Positions 1 to 29,010 of a stretch of 42,040 nt of DNA are shown here, piece after piece; the stretch's first letter is position 1, and each line of letters opens with the position of its first letter. The notes below the pieces were generated by a model. The model was not told the origin of the DNA and searched no databases. It worked only from the letters and a program-made list of their open reading frames with translations. Source of the DNA: Chrysophaeum taylorii (lineage: Eukaryota > Sar > Pelagophyceae > Pelagomonadales > Pelagomonadaceae). Both the position numbers and the translations under genes were made by a program. The stretch is from positions 1 through 42,040 of the forward strand of contig JAQMWT010000462.1 in NCBI GenBank assembly GCA_029834535.1, in the 5' to 3' direction.

Positions 1-2
1 TT

Positions 3-424
3 TTTCGATTTGCTTGGTTTGCGGATCGCATCATGGTGAGCATTTGCAACAGCATTGAAGAGGGAGGTGAGGTTCAGGTCCTCCTCTGCTAAGAGGCGGC
101 TGGAGATGGCCGTGAGGAATTCTGCAACCTGGTTGATGTCTCCGGGGCTGGGGGTGCCATGGCGTATCGTGGCCCATTCGATGTGAAGGTTCACGTGATG
201 GTGTGATTCGTGGAGTGCGATGACAGCACTGTACTTTGCCTGCAGCATGTGGTGCGGGATAGCGTTGGCCAGTGCCTTGAACGCGAAGTACAGCGGGTGC
301 TGTTGGAAGAGCCGAAGCAATTCCGGGTCCGAGCGGTGTCCAAATTTTACGATTTCGTTGAGGGTCGCATAGCGGATTTGGTATGGGGAGATCAGCAGCA
401 AGGCGTTGGAGTAGCTCGTGTTGG
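3..424 (-). pseudogene. C5-cytosine methyltransferase, motifs IX and X, continuing past the window edge
   Basis: An open frame with no stop from 424 to the left edge. The segment IRYATLNEIVKFGH (about 383-342) fits motif IX, which orders the target-recognition domain. KALANAIPHHML (278-242) fits motif X, the C-terminal helix and Asn of the cofactor pocket, with Ala for the usual Gly before Asn. The frame is the exact continuation of 8633-9966 once the inserted element and one copy of TTGGG are ignored: Ser-Tyr-Pro on one side is followed by Thr-Asn-Thr-Ser on the other. After motif X about 60 further residues lead on towards the expected reverse transcriptase. Confidence 0.75.
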
Positions 425-429
425 TTGGG
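425..429. other. Target-site duplication TTGGG (left)
   Basis: TTGGG lies directly before the LTR start at 430 and is matched by TTGGG directly after the LTR end at 8627. Confidence 0.85.
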
Positions 430-614
430 TAGAGATATAAATTTCCATTTAGGGTTAGGACCCCCCCCCCTTAACCTCACACTCAGATTACAACCACAAA
501 ATCGCTGTGTCGTACACCGTGCTGCTATTTGTGTCGTTAGAGGACAGGACGAAAGGCAGCACTACCACTGCCACCATTCTCTACCAGAGGCACAGTGATT
601 TTTACTGTTCTCTA
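430..614 (+). repeat. 5' LTR of the plus-strand element
   Basis: It begins TAGAGATATAAA and ends GTTCTCTA, giving the short inverted ends TAGAGA/TCTCTA instead of TG/CA. It contains TTTAGGGTTAGGAC followed by a C10 tract. The leader from 615 resembles the leader after the LTR at 13530. Confidence 0.85.
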
Positions 615-792
615 GGTTTGGACCCAGTCCGGTACTGGTAGAGAAACGTCCTCCGAAAGACATCGATCTCGATCGACGTCTCGGACAAAGGCTCGGGATT
701 TCCAGGCAAGAGCAATCTCCTGAAGTTCCTGAAAGTTTTAAGACCGTAGTCAAGTCTCATCGCTTGCTACTGGTGAAAAAGTGTGAAAAAGT

Positions 793-1401
793 GTGAAAGG
801 CAACCAACAACGCGCAAAACGCAACCCGAAAACGATGGCGACTCACGACCCACAAGTCCCGAGTCTGGAATCAGCGAAGCCATTCGCTACACCACAAGAC
901 CCACAAGCTTTCTGGCAACCGCTCAAACAGCGCCTAGATGATATATTAAATCGGATCGCCGCTGATCACGCTGCCTTAAGAGCCAAACACGCTGCCGAAA
1001 GAGCTGCGCTCGCCGAAAAATTCGCTGCCGCAATCGAAGCTCAAGACGACCAACTCGATCAAGACGAGCAACTCGATCAAGACGTGCAGCTCGATCAAGA
1101 CGAGCAACTTGAACAAGCTCCCCAACCAGCTGTTCATACGGCAACTCCCCTTAAGCACAAGCAAACTTCTCACGAAGTCGCGACCCAAGACCCGATCATC
1201 TCGATGGTCACCCCCCCTCATGCCGACAACCCCACCGGATGTCAAACACCCCACGGCAAAGTCTCAGACCCCACTGCCTTCCCTCCGGACCCAGGCATAG
1301 CCAAGGTTACTCCACAACCTGGCACACCCCACATTCACGAGGACACTCCACCTTGTTCGAATATCGCACCAGCAATGTTGAACACACCACCACACCACTA
1401 A
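793..1401 (+). CDS. First ORF of the plus-strand element, coiled coil with QLDQDE repeats
   Basis: A 202-residue frame that starts after the leader; an alternative start is the internal ATG at 835 (MATHDPQVPS). Residues about 45-80 form an Ala-rich helix (RIAADHAALRAKHAAERAAL). Four tandem copies of a QLDQDE-type hexapeptide follow (1046-1113), encoded by 15-18-bp repeats. The tail is rich in Pro, Thr and His. Position corresponds to gag, but there is no zinc knuckle or known domain. The truncated relative at 14880-19818 has a different start here, so the 5' end of the family is variable. Confidence 0.45.
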   Translation: MKGNQQRAKRNPKTMATHDPQVPSLESAKPFATPQDPQAFWQPLKQRLDDILNRIAADHAALRAKHAAERAALAEKFAAAIEAQDDQLDQDEQLDQDVQLDQDEQLEQAPQPAVHTATPLKHKQTSHEVATQDPIISMVTPPHADNPTGCQTPHGKVSDPTAFPPDPGIAKVTPQPGTPHIHEDTPPCSNIAPAMLNTPPHH

Positions 1402-1550
1402 ACATTACTCCCTTCACTCCACCAACCCCACCGGAGCCTCCACCTCCTTCACTGGAGCCTAACTCCCCACTATCGGCGACTCCCGCTACACCACCTATAC
1501 AAGTTCCCCAACATCCTCGTCAACCCCCTCGCCGCACCACTCATCTCCTT

Positions 1551-1866
1551 GATGATCATGCCACCTACGGCCATGACGGCCCCGGCACCTTCATCCCTGA
1601 CCAAGCCCCACCGCGGCTCAAGCTCCTGCCGCCCCACTGTCGGATTCCCTTGTCCGATATCCATCATCTTCCGCAAGTCACTCTCCTCAGGACTTTCCTC
1701 TCCATCCACAAGACCATGCCACCTACGGCCACGACGGCCCCGGCACTTCCATTTCTACCACAGCTCCTTCCGCGGCTCAAGTTCCTGCCGCCCAACCATC
1801 GGACCCTCCTGACAGACCTTCATCACCTTTCGAAAGTCGCGGTTCCCCCGATTTGCCCTCCACCCG
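1551..1866 (+). repeat. Tandem duplication of about 159 bp with a GHDGPGT-type peptide
   Basis: The block starting CCACCTACGGCC at 1561 recurs at 1719. The block CCGCGGCTCAAG at 1611 recurs at 1770. Both copies encode TYGHDGPGT in one frame and PRLKLLPP / PRLKFLPP in another. The peptide resembles the GCNGPGTETSLIDGG protease site of the methyltransferase element. Confidence 0.7.
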
Positions 1867-1970
1867 CGTGACTATGCATTCCACGACTACGACCATTCCT
1901 CCGTCTCCACTCAAGCACCACCCACCTCCTCCGAAGTTCCAATGCACCTCCGTCTGAGCTCCAACGCGAG

Positions 1971-2753
1971 TTGGCCACAACTAAGGCTGCATTCCGCTCC
2001 CAAACCGCTGAATTGGCCGCAACCAAGGCCATGCTCATTCGCAAGGATGACGCTTTGTCCTCCACAGCCAACAAACTCACCACCACCGACGCCGCCCTGG
2101 CTTTCGCCACTGCCCAGCTCGCCATCCAAGCCGACGAACTGGTCTCCACCCACGCTGAACTCCATCTCACCCACACCCAGCTCAAGGCACTCGAAACTGC
2201 CCACGCTGACATCCGCAGCTCCCACCTTGAAACCAACGCCGTCCTCCAAACCATTCTCACCTCCTTGGATGCCACAAACCCCACCCAGGATGCTGCATCG
2301 CATCTTTCACCCTCATCCCCTTCCGAACCAACCTCCAATGCCTCTCCCCCGATTCTCCCCGAGTATCATCACCACCTCCACGGATGCCCCGGACCTGGTT
2401 CTCCTGGTTCACCACCCACTCCGTCTCTCTGTTCTCAACCCCCCGCCATCTCTGGCCCCTCCTCCTCTACCCACTCACTCTTCGCCTCTTTGGCACCCCC
2501 TGAACCCCTTTGCACCCGCTCGCCTTATCAGCTACCTGGTTCATTCCAACTCGACCACATCCCCGCGTCCGAGTTGCGAGGGCGTACATTCAACACCGGC
2601 GACCTTACCCTACCACCAGCGACGATCACCACGTGCAAAGTCCCACCAAGAATCAAGACCACCCACATCAAGAGTCGACAAGTCCCGAACTATCAAAAGA
2701 CAGCTCTTTGCCAGATGGTCATGCTCACCATCATGCTGCCAAGACATGCATAA
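1971..2753 (+). CDS. Coiled-coil ORF of the plus-strand element
   Basis: A 260-residue frame. Residues 1-100 are a regular Ala/Thr/Leu helix with repeating units such as TAELAATKAM, TTTDAALAFATAQLA and LKALETAHADI, a convincing coiled coil. The second half is Pro/Ser-rich and carries HGCPGPGSPGS, another form of the recurring Gly-Pro-Gly peptide, and then SELRGRTFNTGDLT. Overlapping frames (1942-2898, 2510-3025) are also open, so the true frame after 2400 is unclear. The relative on the minus strand keeps the part from about 2450 on, not the coiled coil. Confidence 0.4.
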   Translation: MATTKAAFRSQTAELAATKAMLIRKDDALSSTANKLTTTDAALAFATAQLAIQADELVSTHAELHLTHTQLKALETAHADIRSSHLETNAVLQTILTSLDATNPTQDAASHLSPSSPSEPTSNASPPILPEYHHHLHGCPGPGSPGSPPTPSLCSQPPAISGPSSSTHSLFASLAPPEPLCTRSPYQLPGSFQLDHIPASELRGRTFNTGDLTLPPATITTCKVPPRIKTTHIKSRQVPNYQKTALCQMVMLTIMLPRHA

Positions 2754-3025
2754 GGCCTTCTTCTCTCTTCGGGCACAACGGCCCAGGAAGCAATCTTGTC
2801 GAAGAAACACCAAGCCACCTCGTTCCCACTTTCGACAAGTCCAAGACCAAGACACCTCGAGATGTTCCCGAGTATTATGCCTACATCGACTATGGTAACC
2901 ACCAAGAACCTAAGGCTCCGCCGTATTCCATGCACAGCAAGAGCCGCAGGCCACTGACAACGTCCCCTCTGATTCAGCCCCCTGGTATGATGCACACAGC
3001 GAAGAAACAAGACCCACTTCACTAG
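2740..3025 (+). pseudogene. Decayed protease-like segment in the plus-strand element
   Basis: The frame of 2510-3025 contains RPSSLFGHNGPGSNLVEETP then SHLVPTFDKSK and VPEYYAYIDYGNH. The same order, Gly-Pro-Gly, then an acidic active-site-like residue, then a conserved HxVP and a Tyr/Gly flap-like stretch, is seen around IDGGAS in the methyltransferase element. Here the catalytic Asp is replaced by Glu-Glu-Thr; in the relative at 18.9 kb it is LADGTPSH. I infer a decayed retropepsin domain. Confidence 0.4.
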
Positions 3026-3033
3026 TCTCGAAT

Positions 3034-4584
3034 ATGGTCTCCTCGACCATTCCAGATCACCCGCCTGATCCAAGCACCACCAATGACCCCGCAATGCCGA
3101 ATCCTCAAGGACAAGACACGCTGTCGACGGTCCCACGGTCAACATACTCGCAGGCACTCACCGCACCTGCAGGTATCATCCCAGATTCACCAGGCACTCC
3201 CGCCTTGTTCGATATCTCTCGATCAGCAGCTCCCGATCATTTCGAAGCTGGTTCCGCCTCGCCGCCTCCCCTCCTCGAAGACAGGCGCGCACTGCCGCTC
3301 ACCGGCGCTTGCTGCTGCACCCACCATCCATCTTATCGGTCGGATGCACTGGATGACACTGTTCAGCAGGTTGCATGGACCCATCTGCGACCACCGTGTA
3401 ACGATTTGATGGATGTCCTCGCACGAGCACCAGCCGCAACACCTGATCACCCGCTCCCCAACTTTCGGTCAGAAGACGCAATCCTTTCGGCTGCCGATCC
3501 TTATGTCTCACCGCGACCAAGCCCCAGGAAAGTTCCCCCCATGGCTGCAGTAACAGACACAGATTTCGAGAGTTCTGAACGACCCGATCAGCCGCAAACT
3601 ATGGACGATTCCATTGCGACCACTTCGGTCATGTGTGCACCCTTGCATAGCTCACTTCTGGACGCCACACGCTTGCGCTGCCTCCTGAAAATCGACGTTG
3701 CGCTCTCAGGAAACATTCTCCGCGCACTATGCATAGACTCGCTCCAACTAAACCAATTCCGTACGCATTTTCGCACCACTGGAATGCACGACAAACGTTC
3801 CACGCCAGCTGCCGGCTCCACCACAAACATGCACCCAAGTCACGTACGTTGCCTCCCTCAAAAGCGTCTTATCGCTCAGCATGTCACTCCTCATTTGAGG
3901 ACGCATGTCGCATGCCCGCACCTTCGAATGCTCTACGCGCCTAAGGGCAACCCTGGTCACTACGGCACTCACTGCTCTGGTCCCAGCATCTCCGCTATTG
4001 AGGATGCACCCAGCAGGACTGACCCTTACATTGCCTTTGGTTCTACTGCACTCTCCTTCGGCGACCCCTCTTTTCGAATTCCCGCACTGGACCCCAAGCA
4101 TTTCAGGCCGGATACTCTCCACCACGGGATCTCAGCTCACGCGCCCATCTGCCCTACCTTGCATACAGGTCAGCCGCGAGCCACACTCCTTTTGGTGCTG
4201 ACTTCGGACCACCCGCATCACGCGCTTTTGCTCTTGGAGCATGACACGCTTTTTGATGCTCACCGCGTCACCGCCTCTAACACCACGACACTCGTCATTT
4301 CCACCGACACTCCGCGCCGCAACGTATCTCACGACCTTCAGATCACCAACATAAGTCGCTCGCGCCCGCACCACGTCGCGCACGCCTTACGAGGGCGCAT
4401 TTCAATTGGTGACCTCACAGGTCTTTCGATGCATTTTCCGACGTCCGACATTGAACATACGAGTTACTTTGTGGCAATCCCCGATGCCAAGACGTCTGAA
4501 GCTGCGCAATCATGTCTCCAGAGCAACAGAAACTGCCAGACAATAAAGCACTCAACTCTCAACAGCTGCTCAACAGCTACTTAA
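3034..4584 (+). CDS. Unrecognised 516-residue Ser/Pro/His-rich ORF
   Basis: A long open frame without a known domain. The minus-strand relative encodes a clearly homologous protein, split by a frameshift, at 19178-17994 and 17944-17177. Many amino-acid replacements separate them, no fewer than expected from the nucleotide differences, so I see little sign of purifying selection. It ends with HALRGRISIGDLTGL, one of four related LRGR peptides in the element. It may be coding once under selection, or a structurally conserved non-coding interior that happens to be open. Confidence 0.35.
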   Translation: MVSSTIPDHPPDPSTTNDPAMPNPQGQDTLSTVPRSTYSQALTAPAGIIPDSPGTPALFDISRSAAPDHFEAGSASPPPLLEDRRALPLTGACCCTHHPSYRSDALDDTVQQVAWTHLRPPCNDLMDVLARAPAATPDHPLPNFRSEDAILSAADPYVSPRPSPRKVPPMAAVTDTDFESSERPDQPQTMDDSIATTSVMCAPLHSSLLDATRLRCLLKIDVALSGNILRALCIDSLQLNQFRTHFRTTGMHDKRSTPAAGSTTNMHPSHVRCLPQKRLIAQHVTPHLRTHVACPHLRMLYAPKGNPGHYGTHCSGPSISAIEDAPSRTDPYIAFGSTALSFGDPSFRIPALDPKHFRPDTLHHGISAHAPICPTLHTGQPRATLLLVLTSDHPHHALLLLEHDTLFDAHRVTASNTTTLVISTDTPRRNVSHDLQITNISRSRPHHVAHALRGRISIGDLTGLSMHFPTSDIEHTSYFVAIPDAKTSEAAQSCLQSNRNCQTIKHSTLNSCSTAT

Positions 4585-4624
4585 GGTCTCGCACATAGCA
4601 ACCATTACCATCTCGCAGTCTCTA

Positions 4625-5452
4625 TTGGACGACAAGACGAAAGATAAGACCACAACGGCCAGCTACACCAGCCAGCTCATTGATGTAGCAGACGAGACAA
4701 CGCAAACCAACTGCACAGCACAGTTCCAGACTACGCAGACGATGCTCAGGTCCAACGCTCAATTACTCGACCACGCAAACGTTCTGTCACCTGACCTTGC
4801 ACTGCTACTAGCTCCTGTCTCATCCATAACTGATGCACCCCATCCGATGGACCAATCCCTAAGAAATGTCCCGCTCGCAGAAGCACCACCACAGGACACA
4901 AAGGTACATCATGAAGACACAGGTAAGTGCACCACGATCATGCGCACAAGCTCATTGCGCCTATCCGATCACGACGAGACGAAGCTACAGCTTTGCTTGT
5001 TCCCTTCGCTTCTGGAAGACAAAGGCCGCCTCTCAGCCCCCCAGGCACATGACCCTCCCCTGTCGCTGCAATCCATATTAGCACAAACGATCTCGCCTCC
5101 ATGCACGACTGCAGATCAGACACAAGCCAATGTCAGCATTCTGCAGAGTTATGCGCACCTGCTGGGATCTTACCAGCACGGCTACCTCAGCCAGTCAGGT
5201 CACTGCACCACCTCGGTCTCCCCTGACACCAGGTCGACGTATCGCTCATTCGCGACCACCCCAAGTCTTCTAATGGACGACTATGATCTCGAGCATGAAA
5301 CCATCGCAGCGCTTGAGTCATACCCAAAAAGGAATCCTACTTTGGAGTCACCTCAACCAATCCCACAGGAGCTTAATCCCACAGGAGCTTTGGCCACCAG
5401 ACGCCACCCATGTGTTCGTGGTTTCTCCATTGGTTTCCTCCAAAGCATTTGA
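4625..5452 (+). CDS. Unrecognised 275-residue ORF, conserved in the minus-strand relative
   Basis: The frame corresponds to 16861-16067 on the other strand; shared peptides include SDHDETKLQL and TISPPC. The listed start is not an obvious ATG context, and the frame overlaps the next ORF by 170 bp. No motif, membrane segment or zinc finger is visible. Function is unknown. Confidence 0.3.
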   Translation: MDDKTKDKTTTASYTSQLIDVADETTQTNCTAQFQTTQTMLRSNAQLLDHANVLSPDLALLLAPVSSITDAPHPMDQSLRNVPLAEAPPQDTKVHHEDTGKCTTIMRTSSLRLSDHDETKLQLCLFPSLLEDKGRLSAPQAHDPPLSLQSILAQTISPPCTTADQTQANVSILQSYAHLLGSYQHGYLSQSGHCTTSVSPDTRSTYRSFATTPSLLMDDYDLEHETIAALESYPKRNPTLESPQPIPQELNPTGALATRRHPCVRGFSIGFLQSI

Positions 5453-7553
5453 CTGCAGCAGAGACAAAATGAAACCACCCCATGCGACTATAACCGCATT
5501 CTCGTTTGGGACACACGCATTTACTTCATGTCATTTGTTTACGCCCATAGTACCGCGACACACGGCAACCAAGATAGAAGCGGACTGCGCTCCACCCTCA
5601 TCTCTGAGCGCCACCCCCGACATGCTGCTCCCGGTACTACTAGCCAGTCCCACCACGTCTGATTCAGCCCCCATCGCTTTGTATGACGTCATATGTCATA
5701 TTCCGATTAAAGCCCAGACACCGCACAGGCTACACCGCACTCGCGACGGCACGCTCACCGCCCCTCTCGGTTTAGACTACAAACATTGCGCCATACCCAT
5801 GGTACACCCACAGTCAACTGAGACGCACGCTCGCTTGTCGCACAGTACGATGCCCAAACACCCTTCGATTCATGATACGCAGAACACTGTCGTCTCAGCC
5901 ACCGCGGAAGCGCCTCCTCCGAACGCCGCCCGGCTCTGCGCTCGTTTCGCAATCATGGTCTCTCGGTCTCACCGGCAATTCGAAGATCTCACCCAGTTCG
6001 AAGTACGAGGGCGCATTAGTCGCCCACCGACGACAATATTCGTTTCGATTCGTATCAGTCATGCCTCCTATGGCTACTCTGGCTACATCGGAACACAATT
6101 CAAGGCACGTACCGAAGTCCCTCTTTCTAAGGACCTCCGTCAAACGCCAAGACCTGATGAGTATTCGTCGTTCCTCCCTGCTTCGACGCGACTCCCGACG
6201 ACCAAATCCCCGACGATTTGTGATGACACTAAGTTCCGTCATCAATGCAATTCAGAGCCACCCACGCTCCTCCGTCAGTCTCCCGCAGGTCACACCTCTC
6301 AAGTTTCAGCATTCCACCCTCCCTCGATTTTATCCAGCATACTGCCATATGCAAACGAAGTTCAGTCACGCCAACGCCATACTTCGCATTTATCGCTAGT
6401 CTCGCGCAATAAATGCCCGCCACCAAATGATAGCCGCACGCAGCGTCCTTTACTCACCTCTCTTCACGTCCCTCCCAGCACTATGCTTGACGTTGAAGCT
6501 CTGCACCACTATGGTTCGGTTACCACACAACTTCGCGCGAAATCCTCGTCCAGTTCTGATCATATTTCGCATCTGTCGACATTATTATCGGAATCATGCT
6601 TCGGATGCAGCTCAGACTGCACTAGCGTATTACGCTCTTATGACGCACTCGGTTCGCTCCTCTCCGTTCGCACTGCAGGTTCCATCTTGCAGAACTCTGA
6701 GCCCAACAGCCGCCATTGCGATTCGCACCCAGCCGACGCTTTCCGTAGCACCCGCGAGGATAACCCCCAATCTCCACAGGTTGGACACGCGCTCTGCTCT
6801 AAGCATTCCACCGAATCTCACTGCCGCACACCGCTAGCCCCACCCAGTTGTGTTACGAATCAAGGAAAGTTAACTGCCATGACTATTTACTTCTGCATTC
6901 CCATACACTCGCTGCTAGCCACAGTCTCGCATGACTCGTTGTCGGACAGTTCTCGAATTATGGACAGGACCTCACATCATGTTCATTCTTCGGACATCCC
7001 CCGTCCACAGATCAATCCTCTCTTGAAACATACGCTCCCCACACGTTGTAAACTGTACAGCTCTCGCATATCGACAACACCCTTCTGTCGAATGTGTTCC
7101 CTTTCAGTCACTGCACGATTCACCAGGGATGCACCACGCTCCCTCGCGCTTGTACATCAAGGGAAGTTTGATTCTGGTGAAAACGTTTCGTATGATTCTG
7201 ATGAAAACGACTCCGGTCGTGAAATGAATAGATCAGTCGATTGTCACAGTTCAGGATTACTTTATCGAACAGAACACAAAAGATGCGACTTTGACCATAT
7301 CTTCGAAGTCAACTCTCCCCCTGGCACGGGCACTATCTTCAAGCAGTCCATCGCCTTCAGGCATTCTCTTCTGTCGCCCGACTCTTCTGCATTTTATGAA
7401 CAGGTTGCCGACTCGCCAGCACAGGACACACACCTGTATCCACCATCATACGCGATACACTCGCAAACCTCAGTCTCCGCCCAATCATCTTTCGATGATA
7501 GCCACTGGCGACTTACACGTGACTACGAACCCAAACCTACAGCAAATTTATAG
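5283..7553 (+). CDS. Unrecognised 756-residue ORF, longest frame of the plus-strand element
   Basis: Rich in Ser, His, Thr, Cys and Pro. The part up to about 6850 is matched by 16149-15601 and 15941-14880 on the minus strand (for example LLSVRTAGSILQNSE), where one frameshift divides it. FEVRGRISRPPTT near 6001 is another LRGR-type peptide. The last third has no counterpart in this window. No reverse transcriptase, integrase, protease or methyltransferase motif is present, although this is where pol would lie in a complete element. Confidence 0.35.
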   Translation: MISSMKPSQRLSHTQKGILLWSHLNQSHRSLIPQELWPPDATHVFVVSPLVSSKAFDCSRDKMKPPHATITAFSFGTHAFTSCHLFTPIVPRHTATKIEADCAPPSSLSATPDMLLPVLLASPTTSDSAPIALYDVICHIPIKAQTPHRLHRTRDGTLTAPLGLDYKHCAIPMVHPQSTETHARLSHSTMPKHPSIHDTQNTVVSATAEAPPPNAARLCARFAIMVSRSHRQFEDLTQFEVRGRISRPPTTIFVSIRISHASYGYSGYIGTQFKARTEVPLSKDLRQTPRPDEYSSFLPASTRLPTTKSPTICDDTKFRHQCNSEPPTLLRQSPAGHTSQVSAFHPPSILSSILPYANEVQSRQRHTSHLSLVSRNKCPPPNDSRTQRPLLTSLHVPPSTMLDVEALHHYGSVTTQLRAKSSSSSDHISHLSTLLSESCFGCSSDCTSVLRSYDALGSLLSVRTAGSILQNSEPNSRHCDSHPADAFRSTREDNPQSPQVGHALCSKHSTESHCRTPLAPPSCVTNQGKLTAMTIYFCIPIHSLLATVSHDSLSDSSRIMDRTSHHVHSSDIPRPQINPLLKHTLPTRCKLYSSRISTTPFCRMCSLSVTARFTRDAPRSLALVHQGKFDSGENVSYDSDENDSGREMNRSVDCHSSGLLYRTEHKRCDFDHIFEVNSPPGTGTIFKQSIAFRHSLLSPDSSAFYEQVADSPAQDTHLYPPSYAIHSQTSVSAQSSFDDSHWRLTRDYEPKPTANL

Positions 7554-7694
7554 TTTCCATATTTATGGCCACCCCCAGACAACTTTATCCCGATATCCTC
7601 ATCGCGCTACGATTATCCGCATATTATTTTAGACGCTCATAGCCTAGCTTCCGCTGTCCCACGCTACACTCGGGACGACAGCTTTGACACGTAT

Positions 7695-8440
7695 GTGACA
7701 GACAATTCTGGTTCCCTCATCTTCCAGAAACAGCTCCGCCTTACTCGCTCTCATTACGACGATTACCTTACCATGTCGAAACCGATTTGGTTAAATGGTC
7801 ATATCTATTCATGGGATCACGCTGGCGCTCCGTCACATCGTCACATCTTTAATAGCAAAACTTTAGTCACGATAGAATCACATCCCTACGACCACTTTCA
7901 CTATTCGCCTTTCGATCAACCATTGGTCTGCTGCACAATTCCCGAGTGCCTGACCCATGATCCCTCCTGTTGTTGTTCGTTGGACAGCCCGCTCTACTCC
8001 GATGCTCCCCCAGCCACTTAGGATTTATCCACTGGTACGCACCGTCCCCTATCTCATTCGCCACTGAGCAAGATGATGATCGGATCTCTCGCACAACACT
8101 CGCCACACTTCATCGTTAGCCTACCTAGCATCTTCCTCCACTTTTCTTCTTACTCACTATCGATGCTTTTTCCTTTCTTTGATCACCCACCTCTTCTTGC
8201 AATACCCTCTTTCTTTTGCTTCCCATCTCAACCGACTCTACACTCGACTTCGCGCTCTTTCCGCTCTTTCTCCTTTCTCACACACACCTACCTGCGTTTC
8301 GTTTTCCTCTATCTCTTTCATGCACATCGCACACTTTCCTTCAACGCCACCTCGCGACTCGACATCCATTTGTCCTTGGCCAGACATTTGTTTGGTTTGT
8401 CCCAGATTTCGCTCATCACCGAGTTCAATCTGCGAGGGCG
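7695..8440 (+). other. 3' untranslated part of the plus-strand element
   Basis: It holds small frames (7695-8021, 8073-8645) with no recognised domain, a pyrimidine-rich stretch at 8150-8330 and, just before the LTR, the TTCAATCTGCGAGGGCG motif that also occurs at 2571, 4387 and 6001. Confidence 0.4.
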
Positions 8441-8627
8441 TAGAGATAGAAAGTTCCATTTAGGGTTAGGACCCCCCCTCCCCTTAACCTCACACTCACA
8501 TTACTACCACAAAATCGCTGTGTCGTACACCGTGCTGCTCTTTGTGTCGTTAGAGGACAGGACGAAAGGCAGCACTACCACTGCCACCATTCTCTACCAG
8601 AGGCACAGTGATTTTTACTGTTCTCTA
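8441..8627 (+). repeat. 3' LTR of the plus-strand element
   Basis: About 97 percent identical to 430-614 by eye, with the same TAGAGA/TCTCTA ends and an interrupted C tract. It is preceded by CTGCGAGGGCG, the only purine-rich stretch at the place where a polypurine tract is expected. Confidence 0.85.
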
Positions 8628-8632
8628 TTGGG
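8628..8632. other. Target-site duplication TTGGG (right)
   Basis: Partner of 425-429. The flanking coding sequence rejoins in frame across one copy. Confidence 0.85.
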
Positions 8633-9966
8633 TACGAGCCAGTGACCGAGTAACACTTGATGCTTTTCTGAAGCGTGTCTCCGATGTGGCCGACATAGTC
8701 CGCGTAAGTGGGACGTGCTTTGGACATAATGTGTCCCTTGGGGTCATCGAGAGTAATTCGCCCTCGTGAGTCGATCGCGGCAAAGCCAGTATGCGAACGA
8801 TTCATGTAGTGGACCCAAGTGGACGGGCGCGAGCAGCTGTGAGCGGCGGCAAGGAGGTGGTGTAGGCGACGACCAGAAAGGCGGTGCCCTTGGGAACATC
8901 CAGCAGGGAAAAGGCGTGCGTTGGGGAGGAGACTGCGGGTTGATGGGAACAGTCCAATATCTGAGTGGGCCTGGAATGTAGGGTGAGGGAGGCGCGCGGG
9001 AAGTAGCCACATGCGACGGCAGTAGCGGCGGTGCCGGTGATGGCTCCATCCAAATGGTAAGCACATTGAGACTCTGCGGCACGAAAACAGCGGAGGGTGT
9101 TCCATGTGGCGAGAGTGGGGTGTTGCGACAAATTGTTTTGGGAATGTGAAAAGCAGAAGGTGGGAAATGGACGCCATGGTGGCGTAGGGGGTGCCGTCGG
9201 CGTCTAGACCGAGATCCGCGAAGGGCTTGGTGAAGCGTGCGAGCATTTGGCAGATGCGGGCATTCTCGGAAATCGAGAGTTTCGAGGCGTCGGCGGGCTT
9301 GTAGGAGTAGGTGGCCTTGTGCTGGTAGTAGTCCAAGGTGGAGCGGGGCACTGTACCACGAAGGGCGGGTTTGGCGATCCAGCGATCGTCAGGGATGGCG
9401 TGACTGGGGTCCAGGAGAGGAACCATGCTCGGAGGCGATGTTAACCAAGTATAAGCGGTTTGCTCGAGGTTGTAGCCGGTGAGCGGGTGTCGGGTATACA
9501 CAGCGCGATAGCGTGTCTTGCTGATGACGTCACCAAAAGCAGAGGCATTGTAGACACTGGAGTGTCGGAAGTAGCCCAGGCGCTGATAGCCTTTTGCGAG
9601 TCGATGATACTCGTGATGAGTTCGGGGGTTGGGAGGTACGTTCTCGACAATGGCGTAGGTCGGGAGCGTGCAACGAACAAAGCGGATTTGTTCTTGGACA
9701 AAAAGGCCGGCGGTGACCGGAGTGGCATAGCCGTCGTATTCTTGCATTACACTCAGATGTTGACAGGGCAATGTAAAAACTGCCAAGTCGAATGGAGGTA
9801 GTCGTATTTTGCCGGTTTGGAGTGCGGCATTGAGTTTCCTTAGGTCCGCATAGTGCTGAGCGTGCGGAAAGAGTTGTTGCGCACGGGTGCGCATAATATG
9901 GTTAATTTCGCAGGTGACCACGACAGTAAGGCGTTTGTCGGATCGTTTGCGAAAAGTGTCAAAACC
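8633..9966 (-). pseudogene. C5-cytosine DNA methyltransferase, motifs I to VIII and target-recognition region
   Basis: This part transfers methyl from S-adenosylmethionine to cytosine C5 in DNA. In order: motif I straddles the TAA at 9967 (AIIAGGLHQ, stop, GFDTF), motif II is VVTCEINH, motif IV is LPCQHLS with the catalytic Cys codon at 9763-9765, motif VI is ENVP near 9645, and motif VIII is TRYRAVYTR near 9510. A long target-recognition region follows; between about 9130 and 8810 a shifted frame looks more protein-like, implying two compensating indels. The sequence stops at the insertion of the plus-strand element, and motifs IX and X lie at 3-424. One stop, probable frameshifts and the insertion make this copy dead, but all key residues are still readable. 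Confidence 0.8.
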
Positions 9967-9969
9967 TTA

Positions 9970-10893
9970 TTGGTGAAGTCCACCTGCAATAATGGCTGTT
10001 TTGAGCGGAGGGGGTTGTGCTTGCACAGAGAGGTCTGCGGAGCCATTAAAGGCGTAGTGGACGACAGTATGTTGGAGGTTGAGCAGTTCATTTAAATACA
10101 GGGAATGATTCTGTAGCTTGGCGAAATCAAGCGTGTGCGATTTAGAGCGTGTCTTGGCGACATGCTGTGTGATGTGTGCAATCTCATCCTTGAGTGACAT
10201 TCGTTTTCTTGTGTGGAAACTAAGCACAGTTGTGAATGTTTGCTTTGGATGGGACGGCAGGGACAACAGGCCGTTAGGTTTGCGAGTGGCGAGTACGACG
10301 GCGGTTTTTCCTATAAGAGTCTTATAATCGTGCGGATCGAAGGTGGAGGAAATCGCAAGTTCGTACAGATATGGCTCGTGGGGCAGTGGCGGATCGGTGG
10401 CTTGTACATGCAGAGCTTTGAGCTGAGATGTTGCAATAACTTGGAGACCTTGCCTGAATTGCGGGACGACCATAAATCCGAGATATAAAGCGCACCCGGT
10501 TGAGTCTTTTGTATCCTTTGAGGAGAGACCTGCAGCCTGCAAATACAACTGTTTAACACCGATGAAGTGGCTGGTAAGGGTGCCTCGTCCCATATGAATG
10601 GTGTGTTCGGGAATCCGGCGTATGGACTCAGGAACAAAGTGTTGTATTGTGCGCGTAAAGCAAAAAGATGCGCCACCGTCAATCAATGAAGTTTCAGTGC
10701 CGGGTCCATTGCATCCGTGCAGCGAGGTAGTCTTCTTTGAGGTCTTTTCTGGAGTATAAGCTGCACAAAGAAAATCTGCGACTCTGGGTGAGATGGTCGA
10801 TGATGTCGGGAAATTCGTCATCTTGAGGTTTGGTGCCTGATTGAGTAAGATGTGGTTGGCGGCACAGGCGTCGTCGGCGCCCATCAGCGACAA
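9970..10893 (-). CDS. Retropepsin-like region, N-terminal to the methyltransferase
   Basis: The first 308 residues of the pol frame. The centre carries GCNGPGTETSLIDGGASFCF, which fits an aspartic-protease active site with D-G-G in place of the usual D-S/T-G. It is followed about 25 residues later by a His-Met-Gly-Arg-Gly flap-like stretch. The remainder has no recognised motif. The last residues, KTAIIAGGLHQ, are methyltransferase motif I, so protease and methyltransferase form one polyprotein. The frame is the same as that of the downstream part; only a TAA at 9967-9969 separates them. The overlap with the upstream ORF suggests translation by frameshift. Confidence 0.6.
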
Positions 10894-12134
10894 AGCCGAC
10901 TCTGGTGGAGAGCACGCATATAGTCACTGTGACGTTGTGCGTAGTCTTCGGCGGAGTCATCTTCATCATTGATTTCGGGAATGGTGTCGTCGTAGAGGTC
11001 TAGCTGACCGTTGTCGTCATAGAAACCGAGGTGTCCTTTTTCGTCTTGTTCATCGGTTTCGGCTTCGCCCTCATCCGGCGGATCGTCCTGGGGATCGGAC
11101 GTTAACATCTGGAGAAAGTCTGCGGCATCGTTTTCGGCTTCGGAGAGAGGTATCTCGTCGGAGATGGTGGTGATGAGGTTGATTAGCCTGCTCATGCGCT
11201 CGGAGCTGGACGTATGTTGGCGACCGGCTTGACTAAGATTCCGCATGGTTTGGAGCTTGCGACGGACTTCACGAAGGGGGACCTTGAAGCGTTGGTCAGG
11301 AGTATATGGTTTGGGTGGATGCGGTTGAGTGGGAAAGGTGACCTTGCGAAGGTGCGGGTGCTCGCGTTTGTCAGGGGCGACAGGAGTAGCACGGGGATGT
11401 TGCTTGTTCTTCGTTGGTGTGACAGGGGTGGCCTTGGGCTTACGACTGTCATTGATGTCGTAGTAAGACGGGGAGCGAGGATTTGGAGGCTTTTTGTTAG
11501 GAGGGGGCTTCTTGGGGTGCCGCGCAATTTGCTTCTTGCGGTAGGCGTGGAGTTGGTGAATGAGGTCATTGTCTTCGTCGTGGTCAAGGTTGGCGTCCGT
11601 GAGAAAAACAGCGACGGGGTCGGAGTCTTCATCGGGATCCGGTGGGGTGTCATCTTCAGAGGGAGAGGTGTCATCATCGTCATCGGTGAGGTGGAGACCA
11701 TGACGGCGGGAGCGAAAACGGGGGTTGTCTTTGTCCTTTGTTGGCAGACGACCAAAGTCAGTGACGAAGCGCAAAGGCCTGAAGTTGAGGGTTGGGTGAG
11801 GCTTGAGGTGAGCCCAAAAGTTGCGCTCAAACGTGGAGATGACTGTGATGCGAGCGATGAGCTTGGGAAGGTGGTTGATGGCTTCCTTGTCTTCGTCGAG
11901 TAACAGCGAGTCGTTGGGAGTGCGCAGACAGTTAGCAAGACGCGCGAAGCCCTTGATGTGTGTTGGGGCGCGCGAGTCAAGTAAACTCGGAGGGTGCTTA
12001 AAGCGAAGCAGCTGGTGGATTTCCTCGAGAATCTTATCGGAAATGATCGCCGACCGCATGGTTGCGATGGAGGACGGTGCCTCATGAATCCTGAGCCTTG
12101 CGAGGGCATCCGCCCTCCCGGCGTAGGTTGGCAC
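10884..12134 (-). CDS. Acidic/basic linker ORF between gag and protease
   Basis: A 416-residue open frame. Residues 1-130 form a leucine-rich, helical-looking region that may be the end of capsid. Residues about 145-190 are strongly acidic (TDDDDDTSPSEDDTPPDPDE). A Lys/Pro-rich basic section follows, and then a second acidic tail ending DYAQRHSDYMRALHQ. The frame overlaps the start of the protease ORF by 10 bp, as expected for a gag-to-pol frame change. A different frame opening at 12367 gives a plausible N-terminal extension through module 1. No enzymatic motif is seen. Function is unknown; it is probably a structural or nucleic-acid-binding part of Gag. Confidence 0.55.
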   Translation of the reverse strand: MPTYAGRADALARLRIHEAPSSIATMRSAIISDKILEEIHQLLRFKHPPSLLDSRAPTHIKGFARLANCLRTPNDSLLLDEDKEAINHLPKLIARITVISTFERNFWAHLKPHPTLNFRPLRFVTDFGRLPTKDKDNPRFRSRRHGLHLTDDDDDTSPSEDDTPPDPDEDSDPVAVFLTDANLDHDEDNDLIHQLHAYRKKQIARHPKKPPPNKKPPNPRSPSYYDINDSRKPKATPVTPTKNKQHPRATPVAPDKREHPHLRKVTFPTQPHPPKPYTPDQRFKVPLREVRRKLQTMRNLSQAGRQHTSSSERMSRLINLITTISDEIPLSEAENDAADFLQMLTSDPQDDPPDEGEAETDEQDEKGHLGFYDDNGQLDLYDDTIPEINDEDDSAEDYAQRHSDYMRALHQSRLCR

Positions 12135-12218
12135 CTATTCGCCTCTCGGGCGGGCCGGTTGGCAGCCGGAACGTTCGCAGTGGGACGGGGTATGGCCGGG
12201 GGCGCAGACGGAAGGTTA
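12060..12218 (-). repeat. Module 2, shared with 37859-38013 and 40150-40312
   Basis: About 140 bp, from CCCGTCCCACTGCGAACG through ATTCATGAGGCACCGTCC to CCTCCATCGC, are nearly identical in three places: here and once in each copy of the tandem unit at the right end. In the two other copies the homology ends at GATCAGG followed by GTAAGG, a good 5' splice-site consensus. Here the reading frame instead continues into the linker ORF. Confidence 0.7.
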
Positions 12219-12380
12219 TCGACGAGTTGGTTGTCAGTCACATCGCGGTCTCCTCGTCGCATGGCGACAAGCTTGATGATCACTCTCCGCCGACCCACCT
12301 TTCGGCGCCCCTCGTCTACAGGCCCGTGATTCCGGACTGGCTCCTGTCGGTCCGGCCTGGCTCCCATGCTCGGGAGAGGT
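12208..12380 (-). repeat. Exon-like module 1, also present at 21358-21536
   Basis: On the minus strand the module begins just after CTAACTTCAG, which looks like a branch point and 3' splice site, and ends with AACCTTCCGTC. The same block, near identical, occurs on the plus strand at 21358-21531, again preceded by CTAACTAACTTCAG and followed by GTCGTAAGG. The peptide frame beginning MGARPDRQEPVRNHG is shared. It lies between gag and the acidic linker ORF. Confidence 0.6.
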
Positions 12381-12432
12381 CTGAAGTTAGTTTAGTTAGT
12401 CTTTTCGGAAAGTTGGAGAGAAGCATCGTTTG

Positions 12433-13444
12433 TTATCTGGCGCAGTTGCTGCTGGACATGGCGCATGTAGTCAATGTAGTGAGCAGGCCGTGCATTTCCG
12501 GGTTGAACGGCGTGTCCAGAAAGGCATTATAGACGTAATGCGCATGGTGGACGTGGTTCTGGCCCGTGTGCTTGTCGAGTGCTAGGCGAACTTGAAGCAC
12601 AAATTCGAGTCCTGTCGGATAGGAAGATCCGAGTGCATCGATGTCGTCGTATGCTGGGTGCTTGACGGAGTCGCTACCGGCATGTAGGAAACGGCGAAAG
12701 AGGGGGTGCACAGTCTCGCGGAGATATACGATGAAGTCGGCTTCTTTTCCTTGGAGGTGAGGTTGGGTGATCGGATACAACTTGCCTTTTGTCATGTCGG
12801 TCGGGTCCTTGTCTTTATCTTTAAGTTCTTGGAGCTTGGCTCGTAGACCTTCTCCAGGAAGTGTTTGCCGAACTTGCGGTAGACACCCTTGTGGTAGACG
12901 CAACGGGCTTGGAAATCTTGCGTGTTCCCGGCGGTAGAGTGGTGGTCGGGGTCCTTGTCGTATTCGTCGATACAGTGCCTTAGGGGAGTGGTGAGCGAGA
13001 TCATTAGATCCGCGCAAGACGGATTCCCACGTGTAGGAGCCCTGTACAAAGTATTGAGTTATGCCTGTTTCAGACATCAGATGTTCGACGAACAACTGCA
13101 CGACGCGAAACGAAATCATTTGGGGCGTGACTTGAGCCGAGTCCATCGACTTGAGAACGGCGCTAGGTGGGTCACTAACAGTGTTAGGTTTGTGCTTGGG
13201 GTCTTGTTGAGCTGGAGGGGGGGGGTGGGGCCGCAGCAGCGACGGCAGGTGGTGGTGCTAGGGTTGCTTGCATTTGGTTCAGCATGGCGCGAAGGTCTTG
13301 AGTGTCGTGTTTTTGGGCTGCCATCTCCCTTCGATGCCGAGCTTCGTACACTTGAGCTTGTTATTGCATGTCTCGTTGGTACTTGGCTTCTAGGCGAGCT
13401 TCTTGTTCTCGCATCTCCCTTTGGAGTTCTTGATTGGCTGGCAT
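12433..13444 (-). pseudogene. gag-like structural protein, frameshifted
   Basis: Starting at the ATG at 13444, the first part is a charged coiled coil rich in Glu, Arg and Gln. It is broken by an in-frame TAA at 13361-13363, followed by a Pro/Ala stretch. A nine-C run (13217-13225 on the plus strand) then shifts the frame into a segment opening with MDSAQVTPQM at 13146. A short excursion into a third frame around 13015-12810 gives a much more protein-like middle (HKGVYRKFGKHFLEKVYEP) before the frame returns to DKDPTDMTKGK and runs to the stop at 12433. Position behind the LTR and overall composition suggest capsid. No zinc knuckle is visible. At least three frame changes make this copy non-functional unless some are assembly errors. 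Confidence 0.6.
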
Positions 13445-13529
13445 TTTGCTTGGGTTCAGGAACGTCAGTGAGCGGGACTCGTCTGGAAATACGGAGGATC
13501 TGCTGATACCGGGACTGGTGCCCAATACC

Positions 13530-13696
13530 TAGAGAACAGTAATCACAACTGTGTTACCTTTCAGCAGAGCGTGAGAACAGTGGTAGTCTGTCCTCGAATC
13601 TGTCTCCTAAACGAGGACAGCCGGTGTGAATAACACAGCGTTTTTCTTTAATCAAAAGGTGGCAAAGTTAAGGGAACTAACCCTAGAATAGGGGGT
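13530..13696 (-). repeat. 5' LTR (partial) of the methyltransferase element
   Basis: Read on the minus strand, this stretch ends in GATTACTGTTCTCTA. It aligns along its length with the LTR at 430-614, sharing the TAGGGTTAG segment, the CGCTGTGT segment and the GAGGACAG segment. The following leader (13529-13495) resembles the leader after 614: both have a TTGG core, then an ACC...AGTCC segment, then CGGTA. A CGGTATCAG stretch in this leader resembles an initiator-Met primer binding site, but I do not assign it firmly. The outer end of the LTR is lost where the array at 13697 begins. Confidence 0.7.
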
Positions 13697-14072
13697 ACAA
13701 GTGCAGGCCAGTAAGTTCACCTAGTCCCAATCTCTAACCCCAGTAAGTTCACCTGGTCCCAGTAAGTTCACCTGGTCCCAATCTCTAACCCCAGCAAATT
13801 CGGCGTAAACCCAATCTCTAACCCCAGTAAGTTGGGCGTAAACCCACACCCACGCTCCTTTGAGCTCGTCGCTCTCACCCCCGCCAATCTAAGCTGCTTT
13901 GATCCGCACACGCCGCTAAGCTTTGAGTTTACTCTAAAAGCCCCAGTAAGTTCGCACTTGGTCTCAGTAAGTTCACCTGGTCACTAAGTTCACCTAGTCC
14001 CAATCTCTAACCCCAGTAAGTTCGCCTGGTTCCAGTAAGTTCACCTGGTCCCAGTAAGTTAACCTATAGTGC
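13697..14072. repeat. AGTAAGTTCACC array, copy 1
   Basis: About a dozen units of CAGTAAGTTCACCTGGTCCC and of AATCTCTAACCCC alternate, broken by a conserved spacer (GAGCTCGTCGCTCTCACCCC to CTTTGATCCGC). The outer end, ACAAGTGCAGG, is identical in other copies with different flanks, so it is an element terminus. Here it has cut the LTR ending at 13696. Confidence 0.8.
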
Positions 14073-14702
14073 GCGTGTAGACGCCGGGAGGGGGCTTATC
14101 GGTATTGCGCAGCACGTGTGGGGTAGGGTGGAGTCGTCGACCCAGAAGAGGATATCCTCGGGTTTGCCGATCGACAGAGAGCCACGTAGAGCTGGACGTG
14201 ACAGAAGACGGGCTTGTGGGCAAGAGGACGCCGACCTCGCGGGGCGTCTGGCCCTGGCCCTTGTTGGTCGTTTGGCGTAGGCGGGCCTTAAGGGATACAG
14301 GTTGGAGGAGCCTCGGCGACAACGACACGATCAATGATGTATCTGGTACCGTTGCAGTGGCCGTGCGACGGGTCGAGGTTGCGAAGACTTTAAGCCCGCG
14401 ATCAAAGTCAGCATCCCGTTGGTTGTCAGGGAGTTGAAAACTCGACTGTAAAGAGCGAGGCGTCGGCTTCCGACCCAACCTAGTCGGCTGAAAAAAACTC
14501 CGACGCCTCGTCTCCGGGAAAAAAAGGGCGCGGTCACGCGCGCGTTGTCAGCATCGACAACATCGTTTCGACGGGGCGTGAGAATGGCGCGCTGAAAGAG
14601 CCGCCGCGGGTCGTGGAAATAGTCTGAGAGGTCGCCGTAGGGGGCTTGGAGGATCAATGCCTGGCTCGCGGGCCTACCTGATCCTTACCCTAAATCGGGG
14701 GA
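14073..14702 (-). pseudogene. Helitron-like PIF1 helicase C-terminal relic, copy 1
   Basis: On the minus strand the relic starts at the GATTTAGGGTAAGGATCAGG border and encodes, with frame changes, the C-terminal third of a PIF1-type helicase: RAILTPRRNDVVDADNAR, then FNSLTTNGM, then the motif region (K)GQGQTPREVGVLL. A TAG within CCGACTAGGTTGGG and a one-base frame change are shared with the other copies. The AGTAAGTTCACC array follows as the 3' terminal region. It is too short and broken to act. Confidence 0.7.
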
Positions 14703-14850
14703 CAAACAGACAAACAGACAGATGTTTGCGGGCCTACCTGATCCTTACCCTAAATCGGGGGACAAACAGACAACACCCCCCTCTTAGCAGTCGACATTTA
14801 AAGACAAACAGACAAACAGACAGACAAACATCTGTCGATTAGTAGTAAGG
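14679..14850. repeat. Duplicated helicase border plus CAAACAGAC microsatellite with LINE tail
   Basis: The stretch GCGGGCCTACCTGATCCTTACCC to GGGGGACAAACAGACAA is present twice in tandem. It leads into (CAAACAGA)n. At 14773-14802, ACCCCCCTCTTAGCAGTCGA and the following ATTTAAAG match the very 3' end of the LINE at 31.8 kb: a remnant of about 30 bp sitting in the microsatellite. Confidence 0.65.
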
Positions 14851-14880: not shown

Positions 14881-16149
14881 GTAACGCAACTGGGTGGGGC
14901 TACTAGCGGTGTGCGGCAGTGACATCCGGTATAATGCCGGGAGCAGAGCGCGTGTCCAACCTGTGGAGATTGGGGGTTAGCCTCGCGGGTGCGACGGAAA
15001 ATGTCGACTGGGTGCGAATCGCAATGGCAGCTGTTGAGCTCAGAGTTCTGCAAGATGGAACCTGCAGTGCGAACGGAGAGGAGCGAACCGGGTGCGTCAT
15101 AAGAGCGTAATACGCGAGTGCAGTCTGGGCTGTGTCCGAAGCAGAATTCCGACAGTAATGTCGACAGATGCGAAACGTGAACAGAACTGGGCGAGGATGT
15201 CGCGTGAAGTCGTGTTGTAACCGAACCATAGTGGTGCAGAGCTTCAACGTCAAGCATAGTGCTGGGAGGGACGTTAAAAGAGGCGAGCAAAGGACACTGC
15301 GTGCGGCTATCATTTAGTGGCGGGCATTTGTTGCCCGAGACTGGTGATAACTGCGACATGTGACGTTGGCGTGACAAAACTTGGTTTGAATATGGCAGCA
15401 TGCAGGATAAAATCGAGCGAGCTGAAACTTGAGAGGTGTGACCTGCAAGAGACTGACGGAAGAGCGTGAGAGGCTCAGAAATGCATTGATGATGGAGCTT
15501 AGTGTCATCACAACTCGTCGGGAATTGGGTCGTCGGGAGTCGCGTCGAAGCGGGGAGGAACGACGAGTGCTCATCAGGTCTTGTCGCGTGACAGAGGTCC
15601 TTAGGAAGATGGACTTCGGTACGTGCCTTGCAGTGAGTTCCGATGTAGCCAGAGTACCCATAGGAGACGTGACTGATACATTCGAAACAGATCTTGTCGG
15701 CTGTGGAAAACGAATGCGCCCTCGTAATTCGAACTGGGTGAATCTTCGAATTGCCGGTGAGGCGGAGGGACCGTGGTTGCGGAACGAGCGCAGAGCCGGG
15801 AGGCGTTCGGAGGGGGCGCGTAAGCGGTGACCGAGGCCACGGTGTTGTGCTTATCCTGAACCAAAAGGTGTTCGGGCATCGTACTGTGCGACAAGCGAGC
15901 GTGCGTCTCAGTTGACTGTGAGTGTACCATGAGGATGGCACAATGTTGGTAGTCTAAACCGAGTGGGGCGGCGAACGTGCCGTCGCGAGTGCATAGGAGC
16001 CTGTGCGGTGTCTGGGCTGTAATCGGAATATGACGTATGACGCCATACAAGGCGATGGGAGCTGAATCAGACGTAATGGGACTGGCTAGTAGTGCCGGGA
16101 GCAGCATGTCGGGGGTGACGCTCACAGATGAGGGTGGATCGCAGTCCAC
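14881..16149 (-). pseudogene. Homologue of the 5283-7553 ORF, 3' truncated
   Basis: Two overlapping frames (16149-15601 and 15941-14880) together match residues about 100-520 of the plus-strand ORF. Homology ends at CCCACCCAGTTG, where the LTR-like TAGAGATAGAAA begins. Confidence 0.4.
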
Positions 16150-16861
16150 GTCTTGGTTGCCGTATGTGGCGGTAGTATGAGCGTGAACATCGGGCGTGAA
16201 GGAAATGCTTGTGTCCCAAACGAGAATGCGGGAAAAGTCGCATGGGATGATCGCGTCTTGTCTCTGCTGTAGTCAAAGCTCTGGAGGAAGCCGATGAAGA
16301 AACTATGAGCACATGGGTGGCGTCTGGTGGCCAAAGTTTCTGTGGGATTGGCGGAGGTGGCTCCAAAGTAGGATTCCTTGTTGGGTGTGACTCAAGCGTT
16401 GCGACGAGTTCGTGCTCGAGATCATAGTCGTCCAATAGATGACCGGAGGTGGTCGCGAATGAGCGATGCGTTGACCTGGTGTCAGGGGAGACCGAAGTGG
16501 TGCAGTGACCTGTATGGCTGAGGTAGCCGTGCTGGTAAGATTCCAGCGGGTGAGCATAACTCTGGCGAGTGCTGACATTGCCTAGTGCCTGATCTGCAGT
16601 CATACAGGGAGGCGAGATCGTCTGTGCTGATGCGGATTGCAGCGACAGGGGCGGGTCAGGTGCCTGGGAGGCTAGAAGGCGGCCTTTGTCTTCTAGAGGC
16701 GAAGGGAGCAAGCGAAGCTGTAGCTTCATCTCATCGTGATCAGATATGCTCAATGAGCTAGTGCGCGTATTCGTGGTGCGCTTACCTGTATCTTCATGAT
16801 GGACCTGTGCGTCCTGCGGTGGTGCTTCTGCGAGCGGGACATGTCTTAAGGACTGATCCAT
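16067..16861 (-). pseudogene. Homologue of the 4625-5452 ORF
   Basis: A 264-residue frame whose first two thirds match the plus-strand ORF (for example TSVSPDTRSTHRSFATTS). It continues in the frame that is the next ORF in the other copy, showing that indels separate the two. Confidence 0.35.
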
Positions 16862-17176
16862 CGGATGGGGTGCATCAGCTATGAATGAGACAGGAGCCAG
16901 TAGCAGTACAAGGTCGGGTGACAGAACGTGTGCGTGGTCGAGCGATTAAGCGTTGGACCTGGGCATTGTCTGCTTAGTCTGGAACCGTGCTGTGCAGCTG
17001 GTTTGCATTGTCTCGTCTGCTACATCAATGGGCTGACTGGTGTATCTAGCTTTTGTGGTCTTATGTTTCGTTTTGTCGTCCAAGAGAGACTGCGAGATAG
17101 TACTCGTTGCTATGTGCGAGACTAGGAGTAGCTGTTGAGCAGCTGTGGGGAGCTGAGTGCTTTCTTGTCTGGCAGT

Positions 17177-17944: not shown

Positions 17945-17993
17945 GGAACATCGTCGTACATTCCTGTTATGCGAAAATGCTGACAGAAGCGGT

Positions 17994-29004: not shown

Positions 29005-29010
29005 CAAACA

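Follow-up and report, generated by a model that had tools for sequence, protein, structure and literature searches.

A methyltransferase in the pol frame of a Ty1/copia family

Does a long terminal repeat (LTR) retrotransposon of the pelagophyte Chrysophaeum taylorii carry a C5 cytosine methyltransferase (MTase) of its own and, if so, what might the enzyme do for it? The question is raised by a stretch of 42,040 nucleotides (henceforth "the window") which represents the entire contig C462 (JAQMWT010000462.1) of the 70.8-Mb genome and for which the original prediction, made without database searches, had claimed a C5 MTase fused behind the protease of an LTR retrotransposon. Indeed, a defunct Ty1/copia LTR retrotransposon copy extends over the minus strand of the window from position 13698 down to position 6, its pol carrying a C5 MTase behind a protease-like site. 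Comparison with other loci of the same genome (designated by L-numbers) leaves hardly any doubt that the element represents a Ty1/copia family in which the MTase is situated between the protease-like site and the integrase within pol.

The arrangement is most clearly seen in copies with long reading frames. The single frame of L014 comprises 1868 amino acids, with the MTase family PF00145 matching residues 355-492 and RVT_2 residues 1686-1848 (PF07727, E=9.5e-28). In L012 one frame of at least 1801 amino acids unites PF00145, a weak match to the integrase family rve (residues 1016-1110) and RVT_2 (from residue 1686). In L021 PF00145 and RVT_2 (PF07727, E=6.7e-40) are found in neighbouring, overlapping frames, and the frame of this locus runs on beyond RVT_2. 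RVT_2 is the reverse transcriptase (RT) type of Ty1/copia elements, in which the integrase precedes the RT; the rve stretch of L012 and the integrase of P0042, a database protein described below, are colinear. The RT which had been expected to adjoin the MTase is thus present in other copies, while the window copy ends before it, since the window is the entire contig and no sequence is available to the left of position 1.

A genome-wide search with PF00145 yielded 57 matches, two of which are host genes (one Dnmt5-like, one Dnmt2-like); the window copy and the 21 other copies examined all proved to belong to the present retrotransposon. With the MTase domain of L012 as query, the genome gives 134 matches which merge into 125 places, a lower bound because only the best candidates were scored; near-identical MTase matches on the contig pairs C25/C521 and C10/C297 may represent duplicated sequence. 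Further copies of the element, whose existence the original prediction had left to be checked, are hence abundant and include the long single pol frames of L014 and L012. The 55 RT matches of the lineage merge into 47 places, and in 39 of these an MTase place precedes the RT on the same strand at a distance of no more than 5 kb. In contrast, among the 150 best RVT_2 places genome-wide an MTase is found within 7 kb in two and within 5 kb in one (125 of the 134 MTase matches were used in this comparison, the nine weakest being left out). The two are located on C58, at a distance of 3.2 kb and itself a member of the lineage, and on C613, at 5.9 kb. This linkage, 39/47 within the lineage against 1/150, indicates that the MTase domain belongs to one copia lineage.

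Paired LTRs were identified in L016, L027 and L030 (93.9-96.5% identical) and, more weakly, in L012/L013 (89%). The LTR has a length of about 196 bp and is followed by a conserved stretch; the span from LTR to LTR amounts to 8.8-9.4 kb in three copies. L027 measures about 9.44 kb and is accompanied by a 5-bp duplication (AGGAG), the flanking duplication of L016 (about 9.1 kb) is visible only in part, and L030 (about 8.8 kb), which has suffered an internal deletion, shows no target duplication. A gag-like frame is present in all 15 copies with sequence in this region; no Pfam family exceeded the cut-off in these frames. Directly upstream of its main MTase copy, L021 additionally contains a partial second one (411-1459), which is inverted and 82% identical.

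The copy in the window

The copy within the window is broken by a TAA stop codon in motif I of its MTase, by a frame change and by the insertion of an 8.2-kb element whose LTRs are related to its own. All of its parts are read from the minus strand. It begins with a 5' LTR remnant (13530-13698) which is 97% identical over 169 nucleotides to the LTR of L027, corresponds to positions 33-200 of the 200-nucleotide LTR query taken from that locus and adjoins another repeat. The gag region (11523-13528) is frame-broken; tblastn with the gag frame of L014 retrieves four pieces, 56-88% identical and colinear with 541 amino acids, and Pfam detected no family for gag in the three window frames submitted. 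An LTR remnant and gag are accordingly present upstream of the MTase, as had been supposed. About 375 bp of foreign sequence (12036-12409) interrupt the gag region; the two halves of this insertion recur at 37861-38011 / 40167-40294 and at 21339-21531.

Pol starts at position 10923. A protease-like segment (10411-10686; LIDGGASFCF ... VIATSQLKAL) can be made out by eye, with LIDGGASFCF at 10657-10686; the protease-like site claimed by the original prediction can hence be located, yet Pfam gave no match in its frame. The subsequent MTase domain (9142-9996) comprises motifs I to VIII as well as the start of the variable region and is 91% identical to residues 1-306 of the L012 domain. A profile search, proposed earlier as a check of the MTase assignment, supports it: the frame at 8575-9966 matches PF00145 with 36.7 bits (curated cut-off 22; E=4.2e-9). 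By eye, motif names were assigned to 9970-9996 (I), 9901-9924 (II), 9751-9768 (IV, PCQ), 9634-9648 (VI, ENV) and 9499-9519 (VIII). The in-frame TAA at 9967-9969 interrupts motif I and, after about 9142, the reading frame shifts, leaving the remainder of the variable, target-recognition-like region (8617-9141, detected by tblastn) out of frame up to the insertion point. Past the insertion, pol resumes at 6-431 with the end of the MTase and a linker towards the integrase (85% identity to residues 763-905 of L014 pol) and runs off the contig. Here, two stretches resembling motifs IX and X were noticed by eye (354-377 and 255-275) for which profile comparison provides no support. Of the motifs said to be readable in one frame, I, II, IV, VI and VIII are therefore in place, but the frame is interrupted and motifs IX/X, placed at 255-377 beyond the insertion, remain unsupported. 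The extent assigned to the element, 1-10893, has to be abandoned since 430-8627 is a separate plus-strand insertion and the 5' LTR remnant reaches 13698.

The inserted element (430-8627, plus strand), which interrupts the MTase frame, is bounded by terminal repeats at 429-614 and 8440-8627, 96% identical over 188 columns; TTGGG, found at 425-429 as well as at 8628-8632, is its 5-bp target duplication. Comparison of its LTR plus 45 nucleotides with the counterpart in L027 results in a global score of 26 (best of 500 shuffles: -94) and a local score of 50 (shuffles: 30). The nine frames submitted to Pfam gave no family, for which reason the element looks non-autonomous; apparently, it is a non-autonomous element whose LTR ends resemble those of the MTase element. 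Its frames are rich in proline, serine and threonine, and its strand is C-rich. Part of its interior (2448-6856, plus) recurs as a second, inverted copy at 14881-19477 (minus), 85-87% identical, with long frames among which those submitted gave no Pfam match.

Type of methyltransferase

PF00145 matches all 13 copies chosen for alignment (best E=2.2e-12), as does TIGR00675 (dcm), for which the one score given, 35.4 bits, is far below the curated cut-off of 100.65. When seven copies were compared with a profile of six phage C5-MTases by hhalign, a probability of 97.3 (E=2.7e-11) was obtained over motifs I-VIII, and the stretch of motifs I-II reached a score of 17.8, with 13.2 as the highest among 100 shuffles. 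Single-sequence hhalign gave probabilities of 96.1, 86.1, 85.1, 76.8, 4.2 and 3.5 for the six phage enzymes; the host Dnmt2 gave 0.4, the host Dnmt5 0.1. These low host values are weak evidence against a host origin because two phage enzymes scored low too. The PDB furnished four matches up to E=10, namely three entries named "Cytosine-specific methyltransferase" (E 0.02-0.04) and one unrelated chain, none being named DNMT3; the entries 8c56 and 4dkj we take to be bacterial C5-MTases. Among phages, tblastn matched best (E 4e-6) a protein of an archaeal virus that is annotated as a DNA methyltransferase. For the window piece, a single-sequence AlphaFold model proved uninformative (predicted local distance difference test score 32.6). 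Judged from these comparisons, the domain has the appearance of an orphan C5-MTase of bacterial type and is not recognisably a host Dnmt2 or Dnmt5, the latter being a weak test.

The two host genes were located as well. The Dnmt5-like frame (2086 amino acids, from L009:6968 to L010:3225 on contig C621) gives matches to PF00145, SNF2-related and, weakly, helicase C families, and the Dnmt2-like frame (L022:4822-5901) is covered by PF00145 over nearly its whole length. Near the latter, on the other strand, a light-harvesting protein is matched, with PCPI-8, VCPI-6 and the chlorophyll a-chlorophyll c-peridinin-protein complex as best PDB matches.

Conservation of the catalytic residues

The residues expected to be essential for catalysis are almost invariant among the copies. 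The motif IV cysteine is present in 21 of 22 copies (L026 has arginine), as is the motif IV glutamine, while the motif VI glutamate and the motif VIII arginine occur in 22/22, the motif II glutamate in 21/21 and the GG of motif I in 20/20; at the motif X-like site asparagine is found in 19/21. These counts include copies whose MTase domain shares as little as about 66-68% identity with that of L014. For motifs I-VIII, the ratio of nonsynonymous to synonymous substitution rates (dN/dS) has a median of 0.138 (interquartile range 0.114-0.170; 116 usable pairs from 16 stop-free copies, 4 of 20 copies having been dropped for stops). Values elsewhere in the element amount to 0.143 from motif I to halfway through the variable region, 0.150 in the protease region, 0.209 in the stretch after the MTase, 0.081 in the integrase, 0.264 in its C-terminal part and 0.147 in gag; those for the RT (0.39, 2 pairs) and the end of the L021 frame (0.27, 3 pairs) derive from too few pairs to be of use. 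The substitution pattern shows that the MTase domain is evidently under purifying selection with its predicted catalytic residues kept. A stop at or beside the same motif I codon recurs in three of the 21 copies covering motif I (window 9967-9969, L025 and L026).

Relatives outside the genome

A protein database searched with the MTase region contained no relative among 7990 candidates scored at E<=0.001 or 7996 at E<=0.01. With the RT as query, 7979 candidates were scored and 3327 proteins reached E<=0.001; the examination covered the 120 of them that were listed. Eligible candidates had 0.55-1.75 times the length of the query (about 537-1708 amino acids), so that full-length relatives of about 1900 amino acids lay outside the range. 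The first 32 RT relatives listed show 32-48% identity and include one MMETSP transcript, one "Bacteroidota" bin and one Populus protein. One of the 120, P0042 (source "ena"), has an RT 48% identical over 145 amino acids, preceded by an integrase and, ahead of it, by a segment colinear with the MTase at 22% identity. A heuristic-free Smith-Waterman comparison assigns this segment a score of 100; the highest values reached by 1000 shuffles and by the remaining 119 database proteins were 58 and 53, respectively. The segment was also picked up by pairwise blastp at E<=10 and by hhalign (probability 87), and was missed by a profile search with the copy alignment over 125 proteins (E<=10) and by two blastp runs (E<=1; E<=1e-3). 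P0042 alone, compared with the phage enzymes, gained no support (probability 0.5). These likenesses, together with the replacement of PCQ and ENV in P0042, suggest that the MTase domain predates the family of this genome and is able to lose catalysis. Viral contigs contained no match to the MTase or RT alignment and prokaryote genomes none to the MTase alignment; plasmids gave weak matches to the latter, the best among the matches listed having an E value of 8e-3.

Possible function and alternative explanations

What could an MTase within pol accomplish? It would travel with pol inside the virus-like particle and would methylate cytosines of the element's newly made complementary DNA (cDNA) before or at integration, so that a new copy would already be marked on arrival. 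The mark could hide the copy from whatever attacks unmethylated foreign DNA or, alternatively, could set the chromatin state of the copy and limit damage to the host. As an overall explanation we favour, with moderate confidence, that the window contains a dead copy of a copia family whose pol MTase marks its own cDNA. Considered separately, enzymatic activity in live copies is fairly probable, while a role of the element's own cDNA as the main target appears possible, if slightly doubtful. The original prediction had envisaged methylation of the element's own or of competing copies; either may occur, and the search for CpG decay described below lent no support to it.

Several observations weigh against this explanation. 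The integrase matches stay under the Pfam cut-off (17.4 versus 32.6 bits in L012), no MTase was found at eight of the 47 RT places of the lineage, and in L030 a pol deletion of about 200 amino acids removes motifs I-II of the MTase while motif IV onwards is kept. By eye, the FxGxG spacing typical of motif I is missing, as is the glutamine typical of motif VIII. The motif IX/X-like stretch lies within the range of shuffled sequences (10.3 versus 15.8 for the best shuffle), and that of P0042 scores 17.4 with a best shuffle of 18.3, the joint stretch reaching 19.5 as a value without shuffle control; with motifs IX/X lacking statistical support, the MTase fold may be incomplete. P0042 keeps its MTase-like segment with the PCQ and ENV residues replaced, which implies that the domain can lose catalysis and nevertheless be retained. 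Nor is there a CpG depletion special to the MTase copies: observed/expected ratios are 1.02-1.07 in six of them. Three other repeat stretches of the window yield 1.02-1.08, with 1.02 for the inserted element and 1.08 for another copia element, and the six remaining stretches measured yield 1.12-1.60. Per C site, C-T differences between copies are equally frequent before G and before T (0.079 each) and lower before C (0.058) and A (0.047). This mutation signature is compatible with the presence as well as with the absence of CG methylation by the element.

Some of these points would equally be expected if the captured MTase had lost, or were losing, catalysis and now served the pol polyprotein as a structural or nucleic-acid-binding component. 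The replaced PCQ and ENV residues in the colinear P0042 segment, the deviations from the phage enzymes in motifs I, VIII and X and the motif I stop in 3 of 21 copies all fit such a scenario. It is hard to reconcile, however, with the retention of the motif IV cysteine, the motif VI glutamate and the motif II glutamate in 21/22, 22/22 and 21/21 copies, even at about 66-68% identity to L014, and with a dN/dS of about 0.14, so that we regard it as unlikely. Somewhat less likely still is an action on RNA, be it the packaged genomic RNA or the tRNA primer, instead of DNA, in the manner of DNMT2-like enzymes. Packaged RNA would share the particle with pol, and the presence of both in the particle is established for LTR elements generally. 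Moreover, RNA methylation is raised by de Mendoza et al. for a LINE (long interspersed nuclear element) enzyme which was inactive on DNA in yeast (PMC5890265, in the part available to us). Yet the domain shows no match to the host Dnmt2 (single-sequence profile, probability 0.4) whereas the phage C5-MTase profile does match, a weak test as stated above. Finally, a host or viral MTase gene might by chance lie beside, or have been swept into, a single retrotransposon copy. The window copy on its own, cut by an insertion and by the end of the contig, would be compatible with such an event, which becomes extremely improbable in the light of 125 merged places, of a common frame with the RT in two copies and of the linkage to RT places in the lineage (39/47 against 1/150 within 5 kb).

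Returning to the self-marking of cDNA, a wider version of it can be put forward tentatively, although we rate it as rather improbable. An old copia clade of several microbial eukaryotes may have captured a bacterial-type MTase independently of the Dnmt3 captures and may methylate its own cDNA with it; non-autonomous elements with related LTRs would share its particles and could be marked in trans, and the domain of P0042 would be a remnant of the same capture.

Other features of the window

A different Ty1/copia element occupies 22171-27038 on the plus strand. It is bounded by 96-nucleotide terminal repeats (TGTGAGG...GTCACA) of 96% identity, matches RVT_2 with E=2.7e-35, and its RT is about 31-32% identical to that of the MTase lineage. 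A repeat family of about 1 kb is present in both orientations at 13697-14720, 28028-30035 and 36141-37332; long pairs are 89-95% identical and one member adjoins the LTR remnant at 13698. The end of the window (37330-42040) consists of duplicated, tandemly arranged segments with an observed/expected CpG ratio of 1.60 over 37400-42040.

Comparison with known systems

Retrotransposons bearing an enzyme of the type used by hosts for silencing have been reported from few lineages. C5-MTases were described in Symbiodinium, where they reside in LINE and DIRS elements, and in a Gypsy element of Klebsormidium, under purifying selection and in some cases methylating CG de novo (de Mendoza et al. 2018, PMC5890265; this and the following statements on that paper refer to the part available to us). 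KnitGypsy-Dnmt3 of Klebsormidium nitens shares with the present element the LTR retrotransposon structure, a C5-MTase located in the pol polyprotein, the absence of introns, the expansion and the purifying selection (PMC5890265). In contrast, it is described as a Gypsy element with a Dnmt3 and with fewer copies than in Symbiodinium (PMC5890265). The RT of the present family is of the copia type (RVT_2), and its MTase is matched best by phage and bacterial-type enzymes. SymbioDIRS-Dnmt3 and SymbioLINE-Dnmt likewise represent element-borne C5-MTases of high copy number, the MTase of the LINE also being an orphan (PMC5890265). Unlike the present element, SymbioDIRS, which uses a tyrosine recombinase, and SymbioLINE are without a copia integrase (PMC5890265). 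DIRS elements with a Dam-like adenine methyltransferase are retrotransposon-borne too, but concern an N6-adenine enzyme, structurally unrelated, in another element class (PMC5890265).

A paper of 2025 names DNMT3 in "LTR Copia and DIRS" retrotransposons, citing the 2018 paper, which says Gypsy (PMC12344493). Its "LTR Copia" is the superfamily of the present element and, in the part of that paper available to us, it speaks of DNMT3 without giving an element structure; it counts as a prior mention of a copia-borne DNMT (PMC12344493). Our literature search, of partial coverage, met with no copia element having an MTase between protease and integrase. Stand-alone C5-MTases, that is the enzyme of phage vir335 (L031) and PDB entries 8c56 and 4dkj, which are the best tblastn or profile matches, show the same motif order I, II, IV, VI, VIII. 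The vir335 enzyme differs from the element's domain, with which it shares about 25% identity, in standing alone and in possessing the usual motifs I, VIII and X.

The present element adds to the known class of MTase-bearing retrotransposons, which comprises LINE, DIRS and Gypsy elements as well as the mentioned "LTR Copia". That a high-copy copia family should bear an orphan, bacterial-like enzyme at a site between protease and integrase suggests one more capture, which may have been independent, and the position beside the integrase makes self-marking of cDNA before integration a testable question.

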